From Polynucleobacter paludilacus (lineage in GTDB: Bacteria; Pseudomonadota; Gammaproteobacteria; Burkholderiales; Burkholderiaceae), in assembly GCF_018687595.1 (NCBI RefSeq), contig NZ_CP061298.1:310001-374000 (forward strand): a stretch of DNA of 64,000 nt, written 5' to 3'. Position 1 is the stretch's first letter; every line of letters begins with the position of its first letter. A program made the position numbers and the translations under genes. The notes beneath the pieces are model-generated. The model worked only from the letters and a program-made list of their open reading frames with translations. It made no database searches and was not told the DNA's origin. Shown piece by piece: positions 36,005 to 39,946 of the stretch.

Positions 36005-36040
36005 TTCAGTCAGAAAATCTGCCTCTCTTGATTCAGCACA

Positions 36041-36065
36041 AAGCCCTCAACTGAGGGCTTTTTGT
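36041..36065. terminator. terminator between livF and the convergent FMN operon
   Basis: AAGCCCTC and GAGGGCTT (36041-36060) form a stem with a 4-base loop, followed by TTTTTG. The stop codon of the minus-strand gene falls inside it, and the A-run on the other side makes it work in both directions. Confidence 0.8.
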
Positions 36066-36475
36066 TTGCAACTGATATGCAACATATGACCCAAGAAAAA
36101 GCCTAAGAAAAGAATGCCAATCACCCAATGTGCTGTGATGGCGTGCTCTCGAAGCTCTGCTGGTCCGTAATAGAGTAGGGCGGCAGTCAAGATGAGCGCT
36201 AACAGACATACGAGTTGCCCAAGTCCGCTGACCATTTGCTGTTTTGCCTTCAATCCGGCCTTAAGGTGAACAGTCAAAACGGACCCCAAAGCCATTGAGG
36301 CTGCCATCGCAGTAAGGCCGTGCCAACTCAAAATGGTGTGCGGCCGAAATATCAATGGGGTCAAGTGGAAATCATTCACCAGTAAATACATCAAACCGGT
36401 AATTGAGCAGAGGAAAATACTGCCAATCACAAAGTATCTCTGCCATATTGGCATTTTTCCTAAGCGGGAAGCCAT
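36047..36475 (-). CDS. four-helix, histidine-rich membrane protein (b-type haem candidate)
   Basis: A 142-residue protein with four hydrophobic segments (about residues 14-29, 46-66, 80-100 and 115-133). Each helix carries or borders histidines: RPH and SWHG, TVHL, REHAITAHW and GHMLHIS. Paired histidines in a four-helix bundle suggest bis-His haem b ligation, as in cytochrome b561 or DUF4405-like proteins, so it may pass electrons across the inner membrane. It overlaps the ApbE gene by 16 bases and is last in the Fur-type operon. Haem binding is inferred. Confidence 0.65.
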   Translation of the reverse strand: MASRLGKMPIWQRYFVIGSIFLCSITGLMYLLVNDFHLTPLIFRPHTILSWHGLTAMAASMALGSVLTVHLKAGLKAKQQMVSGLGQLVCLLALILTAALLYYGPAELREHAITAHWVIGILFLGFFLGHMLHISCKQKALS

Positions 36476-37263
36476 AAAGATTCTGCCTGGTAGTTTTTGA
36501 AAATCGGGTGGTGGGCATCTTGCGACAAAGCCAGTACTTTAGTGAGTGCATCGGCATAGATGCATTCTTGAGCGATGATGGAATACGAACCTTGAATCGG
36601 AGTACTGCCTTTTTGGGGGTGGAAGATCGTGTGATTACTTGAGGTGGCAATCGCCCCCTCCCGTAAGCTGCCAATCTGAATCAGTTCATTGGCTTGTCTG
36701 GGGCTGCGCAGTAAGACAGTATGAGATTGTCTGCCAAAGACCCTGAGGTCGCCACCTGCATTGACAACACCATTTTGGATGCCGCAAAGCTTGAGCGCTC
36801 GCACTGCCTCATCTACAGCAAAACCCTTAGCGATACCTCCAAGATCAAGGCAAACCGCTTGGGTCAGGCGAATGATTTGATTACCCAAAAATTGGATACT
36901 GAGAATACTGCTTTCATTGGAGGGGACATGGTTTATCTGATGTAGTGGTAATAATTTTTTATTGACGAGCTGTCTCCCCACCCCACAATCAAATAAACCA
37001 CGCGACTCCTGACAAATGAATTGTGCAGTCTTTAATACTTTTTCCGTCCAAGGATGAATCTCTAGTGACTCATCGGCTCGATAACTATTAATCATCGAAA
37101 GCTCACTATGTCGATCATGAAAACCCATCAAGCTTTGGACTAAGGCAATTGAAGCAAAAGCTTCATCTATTGCAAGATGGGTTTGCCTTGAGGTGAGTCC
37201 CACCTGAGCTTCATCAATTTGAATCTCGACATAGGTGCCGAGCATCGGTTTGCAGCGGATCAT
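36460..37263 (-). CDS. apbE: ApbE-family FAD:protein FMN transferase
   Basis: A 267-residue protein with the ApbE pattern: MLGTYVEIQI near the start, FDCGVGRQLV, a LDLGGIAKGFAVDEAVRAL segment near residue 140, and VNAGGDLRVFG, the flavin and metal binding motif. It attaches FMN from FAD to a Thr of a partner protein. The partner is probably the FMN-binding protein encoded just upstream, which overlaps it by 4 bases (ATGA). No obvious lipoprotein signal is present, and the protein is shorter than typical periplasmic ApbE (about 350 residues). Confidence 0.88.
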   Translation of the reverse strand: MIRCKPMLGTYVEIQIDEAQVGLTSRQTHLAIDEAFASIALVQSLMGFHDRHSELSMINSYRADESLEIHPWTEKVLKTAQFICQESRGLFDCGVGRQLVNKKLLPLHQINHVPSNESSILSIQFLGNQIIRLTQAVCLDLGGIAKGFAVDEAVRALKLCGIQNGVVNAGGDLRVFGRQSHTVLLRSPRQANELIQIGSLREGAIATSSNHTIFHPQKGSTPIQGSYSIIAQECIYADALTKVLALSQDAHHPIFKNYQAESLWLPA

Positions 37264-37805
37264 TTGCTTACAGAACTCTTGAGTGCCAGCTCATGCAAGA
37301 CCAAGACACGTTTTACGCCATCAGTAAGATGCTTTGAAGATAAGGTAGCGCCACTAATATTTTGAATATCCTGATTAAGCTTGACCGGGTCACTTGCCGT
37401 TTTGCCAATAAATTGCTGACGCCATTTGCTATCAGCCACTTCATAGCCATAGGACTCGACGTATTCGAGGATTTCAAGGCCTTTGACGCTGCCATTGGGC
37501 GCAATACCAACTGCATAAGTAATCATTTCATGTTTACCCACAACCTCATCAATAATCAGCCAACTCCCATCACTCGTCTTCCAGATACGCTCTCCAGTAA
37601 AAGGATAGCGAATGCTAGAGGCTTGTCGCATTCGCTCTTGGAGTGCTTTGCTAATGATGATGGGCCGTTTGACGAGACCCTGATTGGGAAACAAAAGCTG
37701 TTGCGCTTGCTCAATCGAAACATAAATCTTGGCCTGCACTAGGATTGGGCTAGCAGTGATTGCAAGTCCAGCGATGCTCAGTAAAGTGGGTTTCCAATAC
37801 ATCAT
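37260..37805 (-). CDS. FMN-binding-domain protein, flavinylation substrate
   Basis: A 181-residue exported protein. Residues 1-25 form a signal peptide, followed by a short segment and then an FMN-binding domain with GLEILEYVESYGYEVADSKWRQQFIG (in parts) and the motif ISGATLSS near residue 150. The Thr in S-G-A-T is the usual attachment site of FMN by ApbE, and an ApbE gene overlaps it. It is thus likely to be a periplasmic flavoprotein that moves electrons between the membrane protein and an acceptor. The acceptor may be Fe3+, given the upstream Fur-like sites. Confidence 0.85.
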   Translation of the reverse strand: MMYWKPTLLSIAGLAITASPILVQAKIYVSIEQAQQLLFPNQGLVKRPIIISKALQERMRQASSIRYPFTGERIWKTSDGSWLIIDEVVGKHEMITYAVGIAPNGSVKGLEILEYVESYGYEVADSKWRQQFIGKTASDPVKLNQDIQNISGATLSSKHLTDGVKRVLVLHELALKSSVSK

Positions 37806-37808
37806 GAC

Positions 37809-38723
37809 TTAGTTCAGGGGAAAGCCAACTTTTACGATGTATTCATTCACGGTATGGCTGTCCCATACGCGGGCATTAGAGCATTCTGCCTCGCCACCGT
37901 TCATGCAGTTGCCACCCTTGAGTTGATAGCGCCAAGCCCCAGTAACCCACCAATCTTTGGTGGCGTAATGGAGATTAGGCCCCAGAAAGGTAGCGCGTTG
38001 CACTTGGTTGCGTAAGTTCAACTCAGAGTAATCATTATGAAGGCGTGCCTCAACACCAGCAGACCATTTCGGAGCAAAGCGATAACTTGCCCCCACTAAA
38101 AAGTCGAGCATCGATTCAGGGACATTACCGTTCTCAATAAACTTGAGTCGTTCATTGGCCGCTACGACGTTACCTGCCAAGATCAGGCGATCGTCAATGA
38201 AGTTAGATTGCAAGAGCAGTCGCGCTTCGAGCTCATCCTTGTTCCGACCCCAGGTAGGTTCTAAATACAGGCCAAGGCCCACGGGTGAGGTTACAGGATT
38301 CGTAATGCGATAAATCGCCTCTAAAGACGCGCCTTCTACTCCGCCCTTGACGTAAGCAGAGTCCGGATTGTGACTAGAGGGAACGCCATAGCCACCAGTG
38401 CAAGTTGGGCTCTCACCACAGGCTTCTGGATTGGTGTAGTTTTGATTGGCATTGGTGTAGCCTGAGTTGATGTATCCCGCAATTTGTAAATCATTCGTTA
38501 AGCCATACTCGAGCTCAGTGCGTGCAGTCCATTGTTCAAAAGTGCCTGCTGCTTGCTGTTGATTGAGTTGCAAGCGCTGTTCAAATTCCCATTTTTCCTT
38601 TGGCTGAAGATCGAGTGTATAGATCCACCCAAATACACCCTCACCAGCGTGGGCAAGAGAGAAGTGGAGCGCTGCAGCGATGACGAGAGAAAAAGCAATG
38701 AGTCGTTTGATATTGGATTTCAT
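37809..38723 (-). CDS. outer-membrane-type protein of the iron/flavin operon (DUF6662-like)
   Basis: A 304-residue protein with a signal peptide (residues 1-26, ending AHA-GE) followed by alternating hydrophobic and polar strands rich in Tyr, Asn and Leu: EFEQRLQLNQQQ, ARTELEYGLTNDLQIAGYI, LGLYLEPTWGRNKDE, and the end KVGFPLN with no aromatic terminal residue. It looks like an outer-membrane beta barrel or a surface beta protein, and I believe it fits the DUF6662 family, from memory. It is the first gene of the operon, three bases ahead of the FMN protein. It may be a porin-like route or ligand for iron. Confidence 0.7.
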   Translation of the reverse strand: MKSNIKRLIAFSLVIAAALHFSLAHAGEGVFGWIYTLDLQPKEKWEFEQRLQLNQQQAAGTFEQWTARTELEYGLTNDLQIAGYINSGYTNANQNYTNPEACGESPTCTGGYGVPSSHNPDSAYVKGGVEGASLEAIYRITNPVTSPVGLGLYLEPTWGRNKDELEARLLLQSNFIDDRLILAGNVVAANERLKFIENGNVPESMLDFLVGASYRFAPKWSAGVEARLHNDYSELNLRNQVQRATFLGPNLHYATKDWWVTGAWRYQLKGGNCMNGGEAECSNARVWDSHTVNEYIVKVGFPLN

Positions 38724-38755
38724 GATGTTGAGGGGGGTTGGTTGAAAATTTCTAA

Positions 38756-38809
38756 TTGAGAAAGGTTCTCAATATAAACTAACAAATAAGAATCATTCTC
38801 ATTTGAGAA
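38756..38809. promoter_or_regulatory. three overlapping Fur-box-like palindromes
   Basis: Three inverted repeats lie between the divergent genes: TTGAGAA-AGG-TTCTCAA (38756-38772), TAAGAAT-C-ATTCTCA (38787-38801, a 7-1-7 Fur layout) and TTCTCA-TT-TGAGAA (38796-38809). The second matches the TGATAAT-N-ATTATCA Fur consensus in its design, with TGAGAAT-type half-sites common in betaproteobacterial Fur sites. They should repress the minus-strand operon in iron-replete cells and may also affect the plus-strand gene. Confidence 0.72.
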
Positions 38810-38897
38810 AATGACCTTATACCCTTTAATGAAGTGTTGGAAAGTAAAAAATAGATACAAATACCGCTACAAATTACAAACTTGTAAGATGCAATGT

Positions 38898-39140
38898 ATG
38901 CATTCCGAATCTTTAGAAAAACTCGTTACGATGAAGATGCCGTTTGGTAAACATGCCGGCCGGCGGATTGCCGAGCTGCCAGGAAATTACTTGGCGTGGT
39001 TTGCGCGTGAAGGATTTCCCAAGGGGGAGATAGGCGAGCTACTCGAGTTGATGCACACTTTGGATCATAACGGCTTAAGTGGACTACTCAATCCCATTAA
39101 AGAAAGACTCGGTGTGCCTTTGAGAAACTCAGAGAACTAA
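38898..39140 (+). CDS. DUF3820 family protein
   Basis: An 80-residue protein, with start at 38898 preferred; ATG at 38889 and 38811 are also in frame. The DUF3820 pattern is clear: MPFGKHAGRRIAELPGNYLAWFAREGFP, then GEIGELLELMHTLDHNGL (quoted in parts). The family, also called a putative quorum-sensing-regulated virulence factor, is linked by structure to small nuclease-like or metal-binding proteins, with no proven function. It is divergent from the iron/flavin operon and its promoter overlaps the Fur-like sites. Confidence 0.8.
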   Translation: MHSESLEKLVTMKMPFGKHAGRRIAELPGNYLAWFAREGFPKGEIGELLELMHTLDHNGLSGLLNPIKERLGVPLRNSEN

Positions 39141-39154
39141 TCACTCACGAAATT

Positions 39155-39946
39155 TTATTCTGAGTAATTTCGAAAACCATGAAATGGTCGCGTTTGATTC
39201 CAGCGCTCAGGTCGAGCGTGGATCTGCTTGGTTGATGTTGCTACATTTGCCGGTAAATGAAAGTCAATTCCCGTTTTCAGAGCAAGATCTTGATACGAGA
39301 TCGGCGCCATCATCGGTGCATCATCGGTATTCTGAATCCAATATGCCCAAGCCAGATTGCGAGAGGGGTCGTAGACCAACTTGAAGAGATATTCGGGCAC
39401 CGTAACATGATTGCTGCCAATACTTCCGGCATTACCAGCTGAGCCGGTATAAACATAAATATCGCCGCGGATTCTTTTGGCGTACTGACGAGTAGGCCCC
39501 TCAATTTCTTTGGCCCAGATCCCCTGATTGTTTTGACGAGCCTGAGGCATCATATTGGCTAAAGAGAAAGATTGAGCCATCGAGCGCTCATCCCCCATAT
39601 CACCAGCAGGTGCGTTATGGCCTCGGTCATACCCGCTCCCTCGGTAGTCAGAGAGGGTGGCTCGCTCAGTAGCGGGCAAACGGGCTTCCTCATAAAAGAG
39701 ATTGGTTCGTGCTTGCTTAGGCTTAGTGAGCCTTTCCCGATTCAGCTTTTCGACCACGTAGATCGGTTTTTTGTCACTGGGGGAGTAATAGACAGCAAAA
39801 CCATCAAAACAGAGATCCCTGCCAGCCTGCGCCACACTCGGAATTTCCCTTCTGGGAAAATACTCAACGCAGTCATCAAAAATAGCCCATGCCGAGAGCG
39901 GGTAGGCAAGGCAAAGCAGGATCAAGGCTCGAGCAAAGGATGGCAT
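39155..39946 (-). CDS. DNA/RNA non-specific endonuclease, secreted
   Basis: A 263-residue protein with a signal peptide (residues 1-21, ending ASA-like at LSAWA). The beta-beta-alpha-Me nuclease domain shows the catalytic YDRGHNAPAGDM near residue 104, where the His is the general base, and the NMMPQARQNNQGIWAKEIE segment with the Asn that binds Mg2+. Serratia NucA-type enzymes cut DNA and RNA without sequence preference. Its location is likely periplasmic or extracellular. It could serve nutrient recovery or defence. Confidence 0.9.
   Translation of the reverse strand: MPSFARALILLCLAYPLSAWAIFDDCVEYFPRREIPSVAQAGRDLCFDGFAVYYSPSDKKPIYVVEKLNRERLTKPKQARTNLFYEEARLPATERATLSDYRGSGYDRGHNAPAGDMGDERSMAQSFSLANMMPQARQNNQGIWAKEIEGPTRQYAKRIRGDIYVYTGSAGNAGSIGSNHVTVPEYLFKLVYDPSRNLAWAYWIQNTDDAPMMAPISYQDLALKTGIDFHLPANVATSTKQIHARPERWNQTRPFHGFRNYSE

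Follow-up and report, generated by a model that had tools for sequence, protein, structure and literature searches.

Several features of a four-gene operon in Polynucleobacter paludilacus lead us to favor, with moderate confidence, the hypothesis that it encodes a Fur-repressed assimilatory ferric reductase that feeds Fe2+ to FeoB. The operon lies on the reverse strand of the window, that is, the whole 64,000-nucleotide stretch of DNA analyzed here (contig NZ_CP061298.1, positions 310,001 to 374,000), and comprises, in order of transcription, genes for a DUF6662 outer-membrane beta-barrel (37809..38723, 304 amino acids), an exported FMN_bind protein (37260..37805, 181 amino acids), an ApbE-family protein (36460..37263, 267 amino acids), and a four-helix membrane protein (36047..36475, 142 amino acids). 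The hypothesis draws on the gene set, its conservation, the Fur boxes at its promoter, and its co-occurrence with FeoB. Under iron limitation Fur would leave the promoter, as the boxes suggest, and the four-helix cytochrome would accept electrons from a presumed cytoplasmic donor or from the quinol pool and, by way of two b hemes, which the invariant histidines and the structural model place at H70/H130 and H52/H116, carry them over the inner membrane. The periplasmic protein, predicted to carry covalent flavin mononucleotide (FMN) on T154 of its GAT motif, would take over the electrons and reduce Fe3+ or Fe3+ chelates presumed to enter through the DUF6662 channel. The resulting Fe2+ would be imported by FeoB, whose own promoter is the only other one in the genome with strong Fur boxes. 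If this is true, the cassette supplies the ferric reductase that a Feo-dependent bacterium otherwise lacks. The original prediction, a reading of this DNA made before any database search, had proposed such a chain to a periplasmic flavin and on to Fe3+ or another acceptor, and the boxes, the invariant histidines, and the iron-gene neighbors described below lend it computational support. Its description of four tightly coupled genes agrees with the inter-gene spacings computed from the coordinates (+3, -4, and -16), and DUF6662, FMN_bind, and ApbE matches over cut-off agree with the outer-membrane-type, FMN, and ApbE proteins that it had named.

The cassette is neither confined to this organism nor an oddity of its genus, a possibility that we rejected on the basis of its distribution across the order and among named genomes. 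The cytochrome was found by sequence search in 73 of 101 genomes of the genus, and a search with its profile across 300 genomes sampled from the order gave matches in 47. Twenty genus loci were hand-picked from the 73 genomes with a cytochrome match; in 18 of them the complete set of four stands in a single order, another has no channel gene close by, and in the last the cytochrome is the only cassette gene. In a named Polynucleobacter strain (locus L249) the four genes stand in the same order as in the window, at 44-75% identity. Among 36 further loci, chosen by cytochrome or FMN_bind matches and including three weak FMN_bind matches for contrast, FMN_bind, ApbE, and the cytochrome occur together in 28, and 22 also have a porin-type gene. 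A set of named genomes was collected with the FMN protein of a non-Polynucleobacter cassette as the query, so that this sample represents the closest relatives of the cassette. Of 565 confirmed loci, the best 80 were taken; many come from metagenome bins, and their record titles assign them to Proteobacteria (three classes), Acidobacteria, Verrucomicrobia, and others. In 74 of these 80 loci a stretch of at most 4 kb contains a porin-type gene, FMN_bind, ApbE, and the cytochrome, all on one strand, and FMN_bind and the cytochrome are found together in 79; because near-identical loci (L150/L172, L129/L210, L139/L218) and metagenome bins with uneven titles are present, these are not counts of independent, surely named genomes. 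According to profile matches the whole cassette is also present on three plasmid records (L303, NZ_CP046053.1, Methylocystis heyeri; L304, NZ_CP094524.1, Bradyrhizobium sp. ISRA443; L305, NZ_CP017076.1, Novosphingobium resinovorum). Both end genes are named "hypothetical protein" in the two of these that have gene tables, even though genomes whose titles span several phyla contain the set.

The promoter region supports that the operon belongs to the Fur regulon. The main Fur box, AATAAGAATCATTCTCATT (38785..38803), has 17 of 18 consensus letters. A second, weaker Fur-like palindrome lies at 38755..38773, a place at which most related promoters have a second box, and a putative -10 element read by eye, TATATT (38771..38776, reverse strand), lies between the two; most genus promoters have TATATT or a close variant in the same position. 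A third palindrome, TTCTCATTTGAGAA (38796..38809), overlaps the main box. Of the three Fur-box-like palindromes originally described, one is therefore excellent and one fair, and to speak of three Fur boxes is generous given the overlap of the third and the weakness of the one at 38755-38773. We scanned the whole host genome, a single contig of 1,670,875 bases (1.67 Mb), with the pattern AATGAGAATNATTCTCATT, written after the cassette promoters had been viewed, and at up to three mismatches obtained four distinct sites, compared with one for a reversed control pattern. The only site with one mismatch, the best in the genome, is the cassette promoter. Next come two sites, each with two mismatches, whose ends lie 51 and 22 bases ahead of feoA, behind which feoB follows; at the fourth site, with three mismatches, we could link no gene to iron. 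Within the genus, 19 of 20 promoters (window included) match at least 16 of the 18 letters, most with two boxes around a TATATT-like element; elsewhere, 13 of 34 loci match at least 14. In 34 of 77 named cassettes at least 13 letters are matched; among random windows from these loci the figure is 15 of 1390. The remaining three of the 80 were dropped, as the start of their cassette is near a contig edge. The genome-wide scan, with the cassette promoter and feoAB among its sites, and the enrichment of boxes across phyla support the predicted control by Fur, whose binding at this promoter we likewise predict from sequence. Upstream of the cassette in L195, L214, L237, and L240 there are related palindromes, for example ATTGCGACTTTGTCGCAAA or ATTGAGACTCTGTCTCAAT, that are possibly lineage variants of the Fur box.

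The product of the first gene matches DUF6662 (PF20367) with 43 bits at a cut-off of 27. An AlphaFold2 model based on 17 sequences has 12 strands at a mean predicted local distance difference test score (pLDDT) of 79.5, and Foldseek relates it to outer-membrane channels, with FapF as the best match (E 4.1e-10), followed by the COG4313 channel and NanC. In other loci the same slot is filled by a DUF6662 or a Porin_O_P-like protein. Based on the model, the DUF6662 partner is probably a channel, and we infer that it carries iron or iron chelates. Our literature search, which mostly did not extend to subscription journals, found no paper on DUF6662.

The second product, a match to FMN_bind PF04205 (44.7 bits, cut-off 22), has a Sec-type hydrophobic signal ending in VQA, as judged from its sequence, and an SGATLS motif; it thereby combines the domain, the acceptor motif, and the export signal of an FMN_bind substrate of ApbE. 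GAT and the Ser two places further on are invariant in all 33 aligned relatives. The signal peptide and the SGAT motif of the original prediction hold. The first S/T of the [S/T]GA[S/T] motif is absent in 14 of 20 genus FMN proteins, eight aligned rows among which read GGAT, and the window protein has SGAT. Its best solved relative is RnfG (7zc6). Like the FMN domains of NqrC and RnfG, the window protein has an FMN_bind domain with a GAT acceptor, but it differs from them in having a signal peptide and no further membrane anchor. It is the only FMN_bind match in the genome, in which no Nqr or Rnf C/G subunit was found. Given that the genome searches returned one FMN_bind protein and one ApbE, there is no competing Nqr, Rnf, or NosR, and the ApbE would serve only the cassette system.

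The 142-amino-acid product of the last gene has no Pfam or NCBIfam match. Eight columns are invariant in an alignment of 49 relatives, four of which are histidines (H52, H70, H116, and H130, each in 49/49). In the AlphaFold2 model, which consists of four helices at pLDDT 92.4, helix 2 carries H52 towards one end and H70 towards the other, and helix 4 carries H116 and H130 in the same way. In this model, the layout of the histidines in helices 2 and 4 could hold two b hemes across the membrane, and the protein is probably a two-heme b-type cytochrome; from the positive-inside rule we infer a cytoplasmic N-terminus with H52 and H116 on the periplasmic side. The paired histidines in four helices described earlier are thus partly upheld, in that the histidines are real and four helices are modeled, but the conserved set is limited to these four and the other histidines vary. 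The suggestion that the protein carries heme gains computational backing from the four invariant histidines in a confident four-helix model. The protein is remotely like DUF4405 and cytochrome b561. Matches at E ≤0.1 link 27 of the 49 relatives to DUF4405 and 20 to Ni_hydr_CYTB; eight relatives scored singly were all below the family cut-offs, and the window protein, although it has the four conserved histidines in a helical bundle that are typical of DUF4405-like proteins, has no match at the DUF4405 gathering score. A profile search of PDB sequences gave weak matches of light-harvesting type (best E 0.15), and Foldseek gave no match at E ≤0.001, the best being FdnI (1kqf_C, E 0.039, template modeling score 0.64). 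VIA-align relates the model at Z 10-12 to cytochrome b6, the hydrogenase-1 cytochrome b, superoxide oxidase, and designed two-heme bundles; these matches are consistent with a cytochrome and are taken as such only, because unrelated helical bundles, among them the top match, reach the same Z. No chain among the best 50 VIA-align matches is labeled DUF4405 or FezC.

The third product matches ApbE PF02424 with 113.2 bits (cut-off 25.6) and is the only ApbE match in the genome, but it belongs to a clade that departs from canonical ApbEs in two respects, neither of which was part of the original prediction. We compared the best ApbE segment of each of 125 cassette loci (eight of 133 loci were dropped for having no ApbE segment) with a canonical set, a biased sample to which 30 genomes each contributed their top-scoring match. 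The first departure is the absence of an export signal: a hydropathy of at least 1.6 before the domain is reached in 0 of 125 cassette ApbEs, compared with 29-30 of 30 canonical ones, and even 1.3 is reached in only three of the 125. The second is the active site. The catalytic triad is Asp285-Ser241-His257 in Vibrio cholerae numbering (PMC12052999). All cassette ApbEs keep the Asp, whereas the His is kept in 12 of 125 cassette and 30 of 30 canonical sequences, and the residue four places after the Asp is Lys in 125 of 125 cassette ApbEs and Thr in 30 of 30 canonical ones; the cassette proteins thus differ from canonical ApbEs at the Thr position and, for the most part, at the catalytic His position. 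By alignment, the window ApbE keeps the Asp and Ser positions and has Thr at the His position, so that it has neither the full triad nor an export signal. A quick tree places all 23 sampled cassette sequences on one side of a branch with a support of 99 in the Shimodaira-Hasegawa-like approximate likelihood ratio test. We considered that a signal-less ApbE may merely be common; a second signal-poor set does exist, but it sits apart from the cassette sequences. In this set of 20 lower-ranked ApbEs (L282-L301), six have a hydrophobic N-terminus, all 20 keep the His, and one has the Lys. In addition, 16 of the 20 have Gly at the catalytic Asp position.

By sequence the cassette ApbE is a member of the ApbE family with a putative FMN transfer activity. 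Because the signal is absent from the ApbE and present on the FMN protein, the cassette seemingly pairs a cytoplasmic, active-site-altered ApbE with an exported substrate. Three explanations would account for this mismatch: the partner may be flavinylated before it is exported, the ApbE may leave by a hidden route, or transfer activity may have been lost, the last being disfavored by the full conservation of GAT. Most ApbEs seem to be secreted, although cytosolic ones exist, for example in Klebsiella, where one serves a cytosolic fumarate reductase (PMC12052999). The cassette ApbE resembles that protein, which we know by its description, in having no signal peptide, but the Klebsiella ApbE modifies a cytosolic enzyme, whereas the only FMN_bind protein of our host is exported. 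We tentatively put forward, as an idea that we ourselves regard with some doubt, that the cassette proteins represent a separate kind of flavin transferase that is cytoplasmic, has the invariant Lys, usually does without the general-base His, and loads its partner before Sec exit. If this is true, flavinylation precedes export, cytoplasmic flavin adenine dinucleotide (FAD) is used, and no FAD exporter is needed, and the ferric-reductase cassette in which this takes place is distributed across several phyla. The route by which FAD reaches ApbE was described as still obscure in a 2025 review (PMC12052999), and the clade makes it testable where and when exported flavoproteins receive their FMN and how FAD reaches the enzyme.

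The genomic company of the cassette may also point to iron. FeoB is present in 54 of the 73 genus genomes with the cytochrome, compared with 5 of the 28 without (Fisher p 6.5e-7, kinship ignored). Among the named loci there are FeoB-like segments in 8 of 80, ferritin in 9, and Fur in 5, as raw counts without a chance control, and one example of each was confirmed with Pfam. The original prediction had named conserved neighbors pointing to another acceptor as evidence against it; most neighbors look neutral instead, and those that are informative mostly concern iron, with a few loci hinting at copper. In Polynucleobacter asymbioticus, ferrous uptake through FeoAB is the only iron uptake known (PMC6629928), which fits a missing ferric reductase, and a transcriptome in the same source reports feoAB up about 4-fold with a phototrophic competitor, presumably through iron limitation. 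A number of observations weigh against an assimilatory ferric reductase, however. The same source states, citing a genome comparison, that P. asymbioticus cannot use Fe3+, and this counts against our hypothesis unless the statement rests on annotation alone. FeoB is absent from 19 of the 73 cytochrome-bearing genus genomes, and in the association given above weak cytochrome matches were counted as present. Within three genes of the named cassettes, Fur, FeoB, and ferritin are each found in 4 of 80 loci, and housekeeping-looking families reach 4-5 loci each. No box is found at 13 or more letters in 43 of the 77 named cassettes, and the fit of the consensus at the cassette promoter, but not at feoAB, is partly circular because the consensus postdates the viewing of the promoters. 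Finally, the absence of the first S/T in 14 of 20 genus FMN proteins means that covalent FMN is not assured, and, judged by sequence, an export signal is present on the substrate but not on the ApbE.

We also weighed three other functions for the cassette. The cassette may release iron reductively from ferric siderophores in the periplasm, these being imported by TonB receptors instead of the cassette channel, as proposed for PepSY-type systems. The logic would be the same as in the PepSY clusters (PMC8238504), and there is a TonB-dependent receptor in the host genome, but the outer-membrane partner within the cassette is a small porin-like barrel, and by eye, among representatives, no TonB-like family is included in the neighbor families found in at least 4 of 80 loci; we regard this function as unlikely. 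The host has a single TonB-dependent receptor match, and at least one is present in 99 of 101 genus genomes; a previous thought that TonB-dependent uptake is missing from the host genome was dropped once this receptor was found. In most of the genus genomes listed, two to five such receptors were matched. The parts of the cassette would suit any extracytosolic electron transfer, including a general outlet to extracellular acceptors for redox balance or quinol oxidation that is separate from iron nutrition, and several flavinylated systems are linked to respiration (PMC8238504). We find such an outlet improbable, as the strong Fur-box sites of the host are the cassette promoter and feoAB, which better fits assimilation, and as, again by eye, no respiratory-enzyme-like family is included in the neighbor families in at least 4 of 80 loci.

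Reduction of another metal such as Cu(II), with iron control being secondary, seems to us very improbable, even if it has some genomic footing that speaks against an iron-specific role: multicopper oxidases flank the plasmid cassette in Methylocystis (L303), and a metal P-type ATPase with an HMBD domain is encoded upstream in L145. In L146, from the same genus as L145, the upstream open reading frame has an equal length and is known by its length alone. The Methylocystis plasmid copy, however, also has a ferritin-like gene, and Fur boxes (34/77) and FeoB, ferritin, and Fur segments are commoner, copper genes not having been searched for in the same way.

How does this cassette compare with described flavinylation systems? 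Ten of these and a P19 set are listed in PMC8238504. Heme b has been reported in a DUF4405 and a FezC protein, cytochromes associated with flavinylation and ferrosomes; in Proteobacteria and Firmicutes, DUF4405 genes adjoin apbE and have flavodoxin partners (PMC11334425). As in those systems, the cassette has a membrane protein with four conserved histidines beside apbE, but the window protein has four helices, compared with six in DUF4405, and its partners are an FMN_bind protein and a porin-like barrel, whereas the described DUF4405 system has a Flavodoxin_4 protein and a flavin transporter (PMC11334425). The cytochrome family of the cassette and the described DUF4405 clusters may nevertheless overlap (PMC11334425). 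The PepSY-like/DUF2271 clusters (FoxB, VciB) share with the cassette an ApbE, a membrane protein of heme type, and an inferred ferric reduction, and Fur control has been reported for some of them (PMC8238504), to be compared with the Fur boxes of the cassette. The cassette differs in its cytochrome family, its acceptor (FMN_bind instead of DUF2271), and its outer-membrane partner, and none of the four window genes has a PepSY match. A related cluster of the same class (L158 4210-6706, reverse strand) is made up of Porin_O_P-like, FMN_bind, and PepSY_TM genes and has no ApbE match, as if the cytochrome had been swapped; the same pairing of porin and FMN_bind recurs in L159 and L160. The word "porin" is absent from the main texts of PMC8238504 and PMC11334425, and the literature searched, including these main texts, contained no description of the cassette, in agreement with the earlier remark that the gene set was not known as a described ferric reductase. 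As a form of flavinylation-based extracytosolic electron transfer, the gene set seems to be new, as do its connection to Fur and its clade of ApbEs.

Some minor features of the loci deserve mention. Between the channel and FMN genes, 8 of the 18 complete genus loci have a conserved open reading frame of 59 amino acids (L019 2203-2382 and L024 2211-2390, both on the forward strand; also L023, L025, L029, L030, L032, and L033). It starts with MEKQN, METQN, or MEIQN, a pattern that returns none in the window. The lone cytochrome gene of the genus set (L036 3835-4251, forward strand), for which no further cassette gene was found in 5.7 kb, adjoins a gene that is Kelch-like by eye and has a possible export signal. 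In the window the operon ends at a terminator-like hairpin read by eye (36040..36061), an inverted repeat AGCCCTCA/TGAGGGCT with a T run, and this candidate terminator is common to the operon and to convergent ATP-binding cassette (ABC) transporter genes. On the promoter side, the divergent neighbor at 38811-39140 (forward strand) matches QSregVF_b, and 39155-39946 (reverse strand) encodes a DNA/RNA non-specific endonuclease; both are seemingly outside the operon.

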